A DNA stretch of 64,000 bases from Collibacillus ludicampi (lineage in GTDB: Bacteria; Bacillota; Bacilli; Tumebacillales; BOQE01): contig NZ_BOQE01000001.1 of NCBI RefSeq assembly GCF_023705585.1, positions 1,129,341-1,193,340 on the forward strand, read 5' to 3'. Position 1 is the stretch's first letter, and each line of letters begins with the position of its first letter. The position numbers were made by a program, and so were the translations under genes. Shown one piece after another: positions 5,668 to 62,891 of this stretch. The notes beneath the pieces are model-generated. The model was not told the DNA's origin and searched no databases. It saw nothing but the letters and a program-made list of their open reading frames with translations.

Positions 5668-5846
5668 TTGAAAATGTGTAGTTTGGTGGGCGTATGCTTT
5701 GCGTTCGCGCTCCGTGGAGGTCGTCTCGCACGGAACAATGTTCAGATGTCGCGAGACGACCTCCAAAGTCGCTGTCTCACGCAAAGCATTACGCCCACCC
5801 AATGTCACTTTTCATCTTCTGATGGCGCCGCTTGCGGTATGGGGGA
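5668..5846 (-). repeat. Hairpin repeat unit A (single, type I)
   Basis: Read on the minus strand the unit is tail (5801-5846, core GATGGCGCCGCTTGCGG on plus), L arm (5751-5799), 21-nt loop, R arm (5685-5729) and flank (5668-5684). The arms match at the base (GGTGGGCGTA) and at the tip (TGGAGGTCGTCTCGC) but are separated by a non-complementary bubble (TCGCGCTCCG opposite GAGACAGCGACT). It fills the gap between metK and the spore-protein gene; nothing else is seen in 5541-5940. Confidence 0.85.
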
Positions 5847-5940
5847 CTATAGAAAAGAAGCGCTCGGTATACACGAACGCTTCCTTGTATGATTCTATTC
5901 AATGATGAGCAATCCCTATGAGGACTTACTTTGGCAATCT

Positions 5941-9422: not shown

Positions 9423-9524
9423 GCGAGACGATCTCCACGGAGCACGAACGCAAAGCATATGACCGCTGGACCTTCATCGAACCCAAGCGCAAAGCGATAC
9501 ATCCACCCAAGCACTAATTTTCAA
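9423..9524 (+). repeat. Half hairpin-repeat (R arms only)
   Basis: Two R arms follow each other: the type-I arm (9423-9461, GCGAGACGATCTCC, then CACGAACGCAAAGCATATG) and the type-II arm (about 9470-9508, CCTTCATCGAACCCAAGCGC) with its flank AAGCACTAATTTTCAA. This is the right half of a nested unit like that at 62.4 kb; the tail and all L arms are absent. The rest of the 9363-9741 gap is AT-rich with no other feature. Confidence 0.8.
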
Positions 9525-10675: not shown

Positions 10676-10830
10676 CGTTGCGCCAACAGAGGATAAAAAA
10701 ATGCCTTTGAACGGGCGTGACGCTTCGCGTGAGACAGAGACTTTGGAGATCGTCTCGCAACAACTAAACATATTACAAGCGAGACGCCCTCCGCGGAGCG
10801 CGAACGCAAGATACGCCCGTTTAAAGGCAT
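10676..10830 (+). repeat. Hairpin repeat unit C (single, type I)
   Basis: A degenerate tail (about 10676-10700), L arm (10701-10758), 20-nt loop and R arm (10779-10830). The base of the stem is longer than in other copies (ATGCCTTTGAACGGGCGT / ACGCCCGTTTAAAGGCAT), while tip and internal bubble follow the family pattern. It lies between convergent genes and ends three bases before the stop codon of the metallopeptidase gene. Confidence 0.8.
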
Positions 10831-22041: not shown

Positions 22042-22544
22042 GGGGAGGGTGTAATGCTTTGCGCGTAATAGCGACTCAAGGTAGCCACTCATTGCGCAAG
22101 CGGCACCATCAGAAGAGTGAATAATGTCTTTGGGGAGGCGTAATGCTTTGCGTGAGACAGCGACTTTGGAGGTCGTCTCGCAACATATGATCATATTCCG
22201 TGCGAGACGACCTCCACGGAGCGCGAACGCAAAGTATACGCCCAACAAACTACACATTTTCGAGATAGCCACTCATGCCGCAAGCGGCACCATCAGTGGA
22301 TGATCGTTTCATGTGCGGGAAGAAAAATGTAAGGCTGCCACAAGCAACGAAATTAGCTTTTGGGTGGGTGTATCGCTTTGCAGCGTAGAGGTGAGTGGAA
22401 GGTCGTTCCGAAACCGCTATTAATAACCCAAGCGGAACGACCTTCATCGAACCCAAGCGCAAAGCGATACATCCACCCAAGCACTCATTTTCAAGGCAGA
22501 TGTCTCGCACAAAGCATGCGCCCACCAAACCACACACTTTCAAA
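22042..22544 (+). repeat. Tandem cluster of hairpin repeat units (D)
   Basis: Head-to-tail units fill the gap between two glycosyltransferase genes. They are a truncated L-arm piece (22042-22077); a complete type-I unit with tail (22084-22125), L arm (22134-22181), loop, R arm (22202-22243) and flank to 22263; a complete type-II unit with tail (22268-22358), L arm (22361-22410), loop, R arm (22432-22478) and flank to 22494; and a truncated R-arm end (22502-22544). All have the same orientation. Type II differs from type I by a TCGTTCCGC rather than TCGTCTCGC tip. Confidence 0.85.
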
Positions 22545-29751: not shown

Positions 29752-29786
29752 TGATCTCTTCACCTCGCAAAAAATGTGATCCTACA

Positions 29787-30215
29787 ATGAAAACTAGTGC
29801 TTAGGTGGATGTATCGCTTTTCGCTTGGGTTCGATGAAGGTCCAGAGGTCATATGCTTCGCGTTCATGCTCTGTGGAGGTCGTTTCAGCAGGTATATGCA
29901 TTGCGCTCATGCTCCGTGAAGGTCGTCTCGCATGGAATCATAATCAAATGTTGCGAGACGACCTTCAAAGTCGCTATTACGCGCAATGCATATACCCTTT
30001 TACGTCCAAAGGAAGCGAGACGATCTTCGAAATCGCTGTCTCACGCAAAGCATATGCCTATTAACGGTTTAAAGGAAGCGGAACGACCTTCCACTCACCT
30101 CTGCGCTGCAAAGCGATACCATCCACCCAAAAGTCACCCTGTAGCTTTTGGCAGTCTTAAACATTTCTTCTCTACCAAGAAACTTTTCTTCTTCTGATGG
30201 CGCCGGTTGCGGTAT
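29787..30215 (-). repeat. Triple-nested hairpin repeat E
   Basis: Three hairpin units sit one inside another. Outer type-II arms are 29801-29842 and 30079-30130; middle type-I arms 29847-29888 and 30015-30060; inner type-I arms 29890-29931 and 29953-29996 around a 21-nt loop. The tail (30131-30215, core GATGGCGCCGGTTGCGG) adjoins the outer L arm and the flank AAAACTAGTGC the outer R arm. All three levels keep the same L-to-R polarity on the minus strand. The layout matches the copy at 62330-62767, inverted. Between 30216 and 30403 only AT-rich promoter-like sequence is seen. Confidence 0.88.
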
Positions 30216-30403
30216 GGGGGTATGAGAAAGCGCCATACACAAAATTGGGTGACTTTTCTAACAAAAGTGTAACATATAGGCATGGTCGAAGTATATCAAA
30301 TGATGGAAGATGAAAGAAAAATGATAGGGTATAGGAATCCTCGAAGCTTCATAGAATAATTACTTATTCGTCTGATTCATTGCGTTACGAGGTGGGGAAG
30401 CGT

Positions 30404-35760: not shown

Positions 35761-36280
35761 ATGAGCCTTTTGCATTATTCCTATCCCTTATGCCGTAAGG
35801 CATAAAACAAAAGAAAAAAGGACTTTACCCCAATTTGTAGAAAGTTCAAGTGACCAAACTCAATTCTTTCCACAGGAGGTAAAGTCACTTGTATATTCTA
35901 CAACAAACTCTGTTTTCCTTTGAAGATTGGATGAAACTTGAGTCTCAAGAGACATAGAAACACAAAACCGTGGCAGGAATTATACAAGAAGCGTACGAGT
36001 GTAGAACGTTGTCATTCTCGATTAAAAGAGTATCTTACGGCAAATGATCTTCATGTGAAAGGGATCCGCAAAGTAAAATCTCACATGTATATTAACGCAA
36101 TCGTTCTATTGGCTTCCGCCTTAGCCATGACCAAAGCAAACGCATACAAAAATGTAGCTTAAAAACGGTATTGGATTCGTATAAACAATTTTTTCTGGAA
36201 AATATAGGTTTTTGATTAAGAGCATGATGTCTTTCTTTTTGCCTAACGGCAGAAAACTAATTTTGCAAAACGCTCATATA
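35761..36280 (+). mobile_element. Internally deleted IS with both ends
   Basis: Terminal inverted repeats ATGAGCCTTTTGCATTATT (35761-35779) and its near-complement at 36262-36280 (16 of 19 match) bound a 520-bp element holding a collapsed transposase gene. A right-end copy also survives at 32309-32362. The element cannot move by itself but could be mobilised by a full-length relative. Confidence 0.7.
35889..36162 (+). pseudogene. DDE transposase, N- and C-terminal ends fused out of frame
   Basis: A TTG after ACAGGAGG starts a frame reading LYILQQTLFSFEDWMKLESQ and then stops. In another frame from 35938 a C-terminal transposase part follows (RTSVERCHSRLKEYL, then GIRKVKSHMYINAIVLLASA), with the glutamate of a DDE catalytic triad in VERCHSRLKE. 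The middle of the gene, several hundred codons, is missing. Confidence 0.7.
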
Positions 36281-49599: not shown

Positions 49600-49832
49600 C
49601 AACCGAACCTCTCTTTCTCCCTTTCGTTTAGAGACATCAGCCGAAACGTTAATATTCCTTTGTTTCCCATGTTATATGAAACATAAAATTCAATGATTAT
49701 ACATGATAAAGCATCATTCTCTTTGTCTTTTCACACGATGTATAAAAGTATAAACGAAACCCGTATGCTTTCATTCCGGACACATAAAGAAAAAGACAGG
49801 ATGTCTCATGCATCCTGTCTCTTATTAAACGA

Positions 49833-50036
49833 GTGCTTGGGTGGGTGTATCGCTTTGCGCTTGGGTTCGATGAAGGTCGTCCCACCCGGATTCTTAACAG
49901 AGGTTGCGGAACGACCTTCAACTCACCTCTGCGCTGCAAAGCGATACGACCCACCCAAAAGCCACTCCATTGCTTGTACATCATCTAATCTCTCTTACCG
50001 CTCAAGAAATTTTTTATTCTGTGATGGAGCCGCTAT
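49833..50036 (-). repeat. Hairpin repeat unit (single, type II)
   Basis: Read on the minus strand: tail (about 49971-50036, degenerate core GATGGAGCCGC on plus), L arm (about 49905-49970), loop, R arm (49836-49889). The tip reads TCGTCCCACC on one side and GCGGAACGACC on the other; the base is GGGTGGGTGTATCGCTTTGC. The unit ends 12 bp from the stop of the large SLH gene. The rest of 49600-49832 shows no gene. Confidence 0.8.
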
Positions 50037-50047
50037 ACGACATATGG

Positions 50048-62278: not shown

Positions 62279-62323
62279 AGCACGAACACAAAGTATGTAC
62301 CCACAGGCCATTCATTCTCAAAG
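62279..62323 (+). repeat. Truncated R arm of a hairpin repeat
   Basis: GCACGAACACAAAGTATGTA, then CCCACAGGCCATTCATTCTCAAAG corresponds to the R-arm end and flank of a type-I unit (compare 22223-22263). It directly precedes the nested copy in head-to-tail order. Confidence 0.6.
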
Positions 62324-62329
62324 TAACCC

Positions 62330-62767
62330 TTCACTCCGCAAGCGGCGCCATCAGAGGATGAAAAGTTTCTTGTGCGGGAAGAGAGATTTAAGCTTCCTAA
62401 TGCAACGGAGTATCTTTTGGGTGGGTTGTATCGCTTTGCAGCGCAGAGGTGAGTTGAAGGTCGTTCCGCTTCCCTATATCTCATTTAGAGGGCATATGCT
62501 TTGCGTGAAACAGCGACTTTGGAGATCGTCTCGCCTCCTTTCGGATGTAAAAGGGTATATGCATTGCGCGTAATAGCGACTTTGAAGGTCGTCTCGCAAC
62601 ATTTGATTATGATTCCATGCGAGACGACCTTCACGGAGCATAAGCGCAATGCATATACCCGCTGAAACGACCTCCACGGAGCATGAACGCAAAGCATATG
62701 CCTCAAAGACGACCTTCATCGAACCCAAGCGCAAAGCGATACACCCACCCAAGCACTAGTTTTCAAA
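62330..62767 (+). repeat. Triple-nested hairpin repeat F
   Basis: Plus-strand order: tail (62330-62416, GCAAGCGGCGCCATCAG core), outer type-II L arm (62418-62469), middle type-I L arm (62489-62534), inner type-I L arm (62553-62597), 21-nt loop, inner R arm (62619-62660), middle R arm (62665-62703), outer R arm (62708-62750), flank AAGCACTAGTTTTCAA. All levels have the same polarity. It is the inverted counterpart of 29787-30215. The remaining bases of 62152-62891 hold only promoter-like and AT-rich sequence. Confidence 0.88.
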
Positions 62768-62891
62768 GTAGCTGCCTTTAACAAAAGCTAACGAATGTAA
62801 ACGACATTAATAAAAATCCGACTATTTCATTTCATCCGGTGCACTGACAATCAAAGCCCGGGTCATGTTCCCGGGCCTGTCGTATAACCGC

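Follow-up and report, generated by a model that had tools for sequence, protein, structure and literature searches.

The window analysed here is a stretch of 64,000 nucleotides from Collibacillus ludicampi (C1:1129341-1193340; genome of 4.09 Mb in 7 contigs). At positions 29,782-30,220 it contains three imperfect hairpins nested concentrically, a three-level palindrome whose minimum-energy fold is a single rod, or long hairpin, of three stacked stem units with regular internal loops between the stems. The fold energy is -182.5 kcal/mol, against -132.5 +/- 5.5 for shuffled sequences (z = -9.06). A partner copy with an overall identity of 88% lies at 62,313-62,771 on the reverse strand. A repeat search of the window places inverted arms at 29850-30015 and 62535-62700 (166 nt, 95% identical), and more inverted arm pairs between both copies cover the outer levels and the tail. 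The inverted arms and the fold show that the three-level nest with an inverted partner 32 kb away, as claimed in the original prediction, is real. The loop sequence quoted there matches exactly at 29932-29950, and the interval given (29787-30215) was nearly right, the element spanning about 29,782 to about 30,220. Table 1 lists the parts of both copies together with the other family members in the window. In the inner arms of the first copy, ATTGCG on the left pairs with CGCAAT on the right. The repeats in the window stand amid several S-layer and cell-wall genes (4341-63968) encoding SLH proteins, a polysaccharide pyruvyl transferase, WecG and glycosyltransferases.

Table 1. Members of the repeat family in the window. 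Positions are those of the window; OL and OR, outer left and right arm; L and R, left and right core arm; T, tail.
Feature	Position	Strand	Remark
Type-B single-core copy (L R T)	5689..5849	+	
Partial copy (OL L)	9425..9521	-	
Fragment with one right arm R	10722..10758	-	
Type-A simple copy, then head-to-tail type-B copy	22054..22491	-	
5' terminal motif CTACAATGAAAA	29782..29793	+	family consensus CTAYCTTGAAAA
Outer left arm OL, level 1	29790..29842	+	profile match
Middle left arm L, level 2	29850..29886	+	
Inner left arm L, level 3	29891..29929	+	ATTGCG subfamily, GCTCCGT internal-loop motif
Terminal loop GCATGGAATCATAATCAAATGTT	29930..29952	+	
Inner right arm R, level 3	29953..29993	+	internal-loop motif AAAGTCGCT
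Linker travelling with inner core, ACCCTTTTACRTCCRAAAGGAA	29994..30014	+	
Middle right arm R, level 2	30015..30055	+	
Middle-core linker, TTAACGGTTTAAAGGAA type	30056..30077	+	
Outer right arm OR, level 1	30078..30133	+	
Spacer OR to tail	30134..30175	+	
3' tail T, small hairpins	30176..30220	+	usual end GGRCTA(YCTTGAAA), degenerate in this copy
Type-A simple copy, unnested	49827..50043	+	comparison form
Second triple-nested copy	62313..62771	-	5' motif CTACTTTGAAAA at 62771-62760
Second copy, left side	OL 62763-62711, L 62702-62664, L 62659-62621	-	
Second copy, right side	R 62597-62557, R 62534-62494, OR 62469-62414, T 62372-62325	-	

Identity between the two triple-nested copies varies strongly along their length. 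The inner hairpin is identical at 102 of 103 positions, the outer arms at 103 of 109 and the middle arms at 72 of 78, against 15 of 22 for the linker and 26 of 42 for the spacer. Given this unevenness, the copies are relatives rather than the outcome of a fresh duplication; "near-identical", as they had been called, describes the inner hairpin (99-100%) but not the whole. The pair had also been proposed to recombine and flip the 32-kb segment between them as a switch. Indeed, the 166-nt inverted arms, 95% alike and including the longest exact run common to both copies (95 bp), offer homology sufficient for occasional RecA-dependent inversion. Nonetheless, very many pairs of family members in opposite orientation exist in the genome, and the neighbouring genes tested around both copies (an SLH-domain protein with YcdB/YcdC and PepSY domains, a 2-hydroxyacid dehydrogenase, a second SLH protein and a PMT_2-like glycosyltransferase) include no recombinase. 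Between 40 and 64 kb, GC skew values (-0.075 to -0.087) match those of the rest of the replichore and so fit the present orientation, which argues weakly against frequent flipping. An inversion switch is therefore unsupported, and we consider it highly improbable. The window pair is nothing special either: the stretches analysed contain at least 16 triple-nested copies of type A and at least 149 family loci.

The size of the family was estimated in several ways. BLAST with the 429-nt query returns at least 98 matching pieces in the genome, pattern counts give 103 outer left arms, 151 core right arms and 96 exact apex hairpins, and a covariance model of the core yields at least 150 matches. For the inventory, five modules were profiled in 471 kb of stretches around pattern matches, window included; 149 clusters could be parsed, so that the family numbers at least 149 loci. 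Their common plan runs from a constant 5' end, CTAYCTTGAAAA, to a constant tail; type A has an outer pair of arms, which type B lacks, and the cores are stacked at the apex. Spacing over the 149 clusters is regular: OL-27-OR-41-T in the simple type A, OL-8-L-23-R-22-OR-41-T with one core and OL-8-L-4-L-23-R-22-R-23-OR-42-T in the triple form. Type B reads L-23-R-12-T and frequently carries a nested core of its own (L-4-L-23-R-22-R-12-T). In the 471 kb, type A accounts for 46 simple copies, 16 triple ones and 38 whose nested core is single or incomplete, next to type-B copies with one core (16) or two (12). Overall, the five modules occur in more than 50 arrangements.

Elements of every depth class start near CTAYCTTGAAAA and stop at GGRCTA, usually followed by a degenerate YCTTGAAA; the same 12-mer is therefore present at both ends, and its conservation fades outward on either side. 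Over 79 elements, the left and right CTAYCTTGAAAA are no more alike within elements than between them (p = 0.29). There is thus no ordinary target duplication of the kind that marks a classic MITE, and the terminal motif looks like a preferred site resembling the joined ends. Tandem A-B or B-A pairs mostly have a single CTAYCTTGAAAA-type motif in between.

Near-identical copies are found in unrelated surroundings. Over the 240 nt between ACTACCTTG and GGGGGACTA, both included, the simple A copies at 1803496 and 3503159 share 97.5% identity, although their flanks differ; the two-level B copies at 1581817 and 3033640 are 98.9% identical over 267 nt, again with unrelated flanks. This indicates that elements, some nested ones included, moved as units; the dispersed near-identical copies point to insertion. 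The original prediction would fail if all nested copies stemmed from segmental duplication including the flanking genes. This was checked and is excluded, given the same ends in all depth classes and the unrelated flanks: the 32 flanks of the 16 triple copies have nothing in common, except between two copies 0.8 kb apart. (Several copies lie within 12 kb at C1:1210600-1222500, including two triple-nested ones at that distance with repeated DNA between them.) The further suggestion that the nested form is itself the mobile unit holds in part. A whole two-level element did move (1581817/3033640), but the triple form is not the spreading unit: its best other copy among the matches listed is at most 88% identical to the query, its levels are uncorrelated and its inner module occurs in different host types.

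This lack of correlation is evident when the levels are compared. In the 16 copies available for a Mantel test, inner left and inner right arms correlate strongly (r = 0.90) whereas outer and inner levels do not (r = -0.04, p = 0.52, on these 16 copies only); the two levels have separate histories. Pairing is level-specific as well: in 40 of the 45 copies compared, arms pair better within their own level than crosswise, with a mean advantage of 13.2 kcal/mol (Wilcoxon p = 4e-8), and the numbers of left and right arms are equal in 89 of 119 blocks. The remaining observations concern the core itself. Together with its 22-nt linker, the ATTGCG core forms a 127-nt module that is 99-100% identical across A and B hosts, against 72-90% for the host arms; the core must therefore be younger than its hosts and have been passed among them. 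The 5' end and the tail are both absent from inner cores. The nested levels are consequently not whole inserted elements, and nesting by end-to-end insertion of such elements was rejected, the terminal modules never occurring in inner cores. Given the uncorrelated levels and a 127-nt module common to divergent hosts, we infer that nesting grows by transfer of cores into hairpin tips. Nested type-A tips lack the left CCCGC, the partner of GCGG in the simple tip, so that acquisition of a core replaces part of the tip. Mosaic junctions fall at short common motifs: at 904645 the 5' end of a B element is joined to the 3' half of an A element at ACGACCTTC, and at 1496406 an A arm switches to L at GCTTTGCG. 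Asymmetric blocks with surplus left or right arms (LLLLRR, LLR) are what slippage between direct repeats would give.

The main competing explanation regards the inner core as a tiny non-autonomous transposon, with a transposase that inserts into or replaces stem-loops, and nesting as repeated self-insertion. It would account for a near-identical 127-nt core and linker in many hosts, and for cores that sit nearly always at a hairpin tip of which part is lost. Stem-loop-replacing transposition has been published for IS1272 of the IS1182 family (PMC5678879), and genome-wide transposase searches, covering PF01797 and PF13751, detected two remnants of a DDE_Tnp_1_6 (PF13751) transposase, one inside the window. 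One of these matches, however, is a frame interrupted by an in-frame stop and the other a short fragment, both in DNA unlike the element; moreover, the cores lack constant ends of their own, and no flanking duplication was found. We therefore regard a self-inserting core as unlikely. The remnants are located at 35947-36105 of the window, between the two triple-nested copies, and at C1:2050631-2050987. An IS1182-type parent was rejected, as only these two degraded pieces are present and they have no DNA similarity to the element. No gene for a Y1 transposase or RAYT (PF01797) was matched in the genome while the controls were positive, and mobilisation of the IS200/IS605 type was rejected as well.

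Searches of other genomes and databases were largely negative. The element has no DNA match in 60 relatives (none of the same genus or family) or in plasmids, phages and viral contigs, and the apex pattern none in 397 genomes of the class; 298 further genomes sampled from the phylum likewise gave no match under strict filters. An apex-pattern match in one Micrococcales MAG was taken as chance, and a viral contig with the loop motif was rejected because it does not fold into the hairpin. Rfam contains no covariance model that matches the hairpins at its gathering score, the only hits being chance miRNA matches (E about 0.7-0.9). Two genomes do respond to the core covariance model. In G004 (same order, other family) it has two significant matches, and a DNA search yields 11 pieces of a family that is low in copy number, has the same layout and carries the loop motifs GCTCAAACAG and CAAACTCGC. 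Downstream of the hairpin, three of four copies there have a sequence like CTTGAAAAT, reminiscent of the ends found in our genome. In G060 (same class, another family) the model matches four copies of one low-copy family. These have stems that differ widely from ours, yet share the internal loop: its 5' strand reads GCTCCGT and its 3' strand AARGTCGCT, as in 104 of our 116 cores. Homology to our cores is likely for the G060 hairpins and possible for those of G004; it is not proven for either, since the E-values come from a short calibration and are rough, and a model of this type favours long hairpins.

The arms of the cores show clear signs of compensatory change. Among 106 distinct cores, 107 double-change cells were counted against 37.4 +/- 5.7 in shuffles, which do not correct for the relatedness of the sequences. 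At C1:621895-622008 the left arm has become an exact reverse complement of its partner, even through the internal loop; this perfect palindrome is what fold-back template switching predicts. Hairpins are known to be created and maintained by template switching (PMC8794818). As this process can produce complementarity and compensatory changes, neither proves an RNA function.

Copies are mainly intergenic. An overlap of more than 100 nt with a greedy ORF call was seen for 30 of 149, some of which may be spurious ORFs within elements. Between co-directional genes the canonical strand is antiparallel to the genes in 69 cases and parallel in 22. Elements also lie more often on the lagging side (105 against 44), but in lagging-strand gene pairs they are still antiparallel to the genes (11 against 6, small numbers). 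Gene direction thus explains the orientation at least as well as replication does, and an orientation set by replication is not favoured. The sign of the GC skew changes near 1.55 and 3.55 Mb of contig C1, which places the likely origin and terminus away from its ends.

It might be argued from these patterns that selection maintains the hairpins as functional structured RNAs or as protein-binding sites, for instance for mRNA stability or regulation, with spread being secondary. The strong covariation, the orientation tied to flanking genes and the GCTCCGT/AARGTCGCT loop, kept also in all four G060 copies despite their different stems, are consistent with such a role. Yet the association with particular genes is not fixed, related genomes differ widely in copy number (at least 149 loci here, about a dozen or none elsewhere), Rfam holds no matching family, and covariation can also arise from template switching. 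Selection for function as the primary cause is, in our view, a rather improbable explanation.

With respect to known systems, the repeat combines features of several. EFAR elements of Enterococcus faecalis are composite miniature insertion sequences that reportedly entered stem-loops, part of the targeted stem-loop being lost in the process. They resemble our repeat in being palindromic, non-coding, variable in length and made of several sequence modules; the likeness is one of description, and our repeat differs in stacking its modules concentrically with level-specific pairing. BOX elements of Streptococcus pneumoniae are non-coding and have constant end modules and a variable number of internal ones, boxB copies being tandem direct repeats. 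Constant ends, variable internal modules and the lack of coding capacity are common to both, but our repeat gains its extra modules as hairpin pairs, at the tip. EFAR is counted among the bacterial MITEs (PMC3733652). Our repeat is likewise short and non-coding, with many dispersed copies in unrelated flanks. Like bcr1 and other MITEs of the Bacillota it is foldable, though without demonstrable terminal inverted repeats with target duplication. BIMEs and REPINs are likewise mosaics; their palindromic modules number in the hundreds, are mostly extragenic and lie between genes that are co-directional or convergent. In the manner of BIMEs our modules are combined in many arrangements, with cores common to different host types. 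REP units measure 20-40 bp and bear a tag, GTAG or CGTC, those of the GTAG kind being associated with a Y1 tyrosine transposase (PMC3733652). In contrast, our genome is without a Y1_Tnp gene and our units, about 105 bp, are nested rather than side by side; at about 105-127 nt with internal loops they do not have the REP build, and CGTC lies inside the apex stem instead of forming an end tag. IS1272, finally, is an autonomous IS with 16-bp ends (PMC5678879), where our genome has only degraded PF13751 remnants. The repeat is a new variant, an elaborate modular palindromic mobile repeat.

On the basis of modularity, common ends, unrelated flanks, level-specific pairing and module exchange, we propose, with a probability of roughly 0.6, a high-copy, non-coding, palindromic mobile repeat that gains cores at its hairpin tips by template switching or short-homology recombination. 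Complete elements of any depth, with their constant ends, would be dispersed by a putative trans-acting activity to unrelated, mostly intergenic sites resembling CTAYCTTGAAAA. An existing hairpin would gain a hairpin core (left arm, loop, right arm and linker, about 105-127 nt) at its tip, the likeliest route being template switching or short-homology recombination between copies via their common GGTCGTC...GACGACC apex stem. Fold-back template switching would keep the arms of one level complementary, at least in part, and single left or right arms may later be lost or duplicated through slippage between the direct repeats that nesting creates. That template switching instead of a transposase places the cores is what we infer, as are the enzyme chemistry and any function.

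A broader and more speculative reading, which we hold to be a long shot, is an undescribed mobile hairpin system of the whole class: hairpins marked by GCTCCGT/AARGTCGCT, whatever their stems, would be recognised by a putative protein or RNA, and cores would enter the tips of their own kind, with concentric growth as a result. If true, the present genome would be the runaway case of this class-wide system, with about 150 or more loci and nesting up to three deep. A concrete handle for finding the recognising factor is offered by the internal-loop motif, which a second family retains although its stems are unrelated. Bacterial palindromic repeats are mostly single or side-by-side hairpins. Here, about 150 natural copies occur at graded stages, with zero, one or two nested cores, asymmetric forms and one perfect palindrome, so that the growth, pairing and rearrangement of long palindromes can be read from a single genome.
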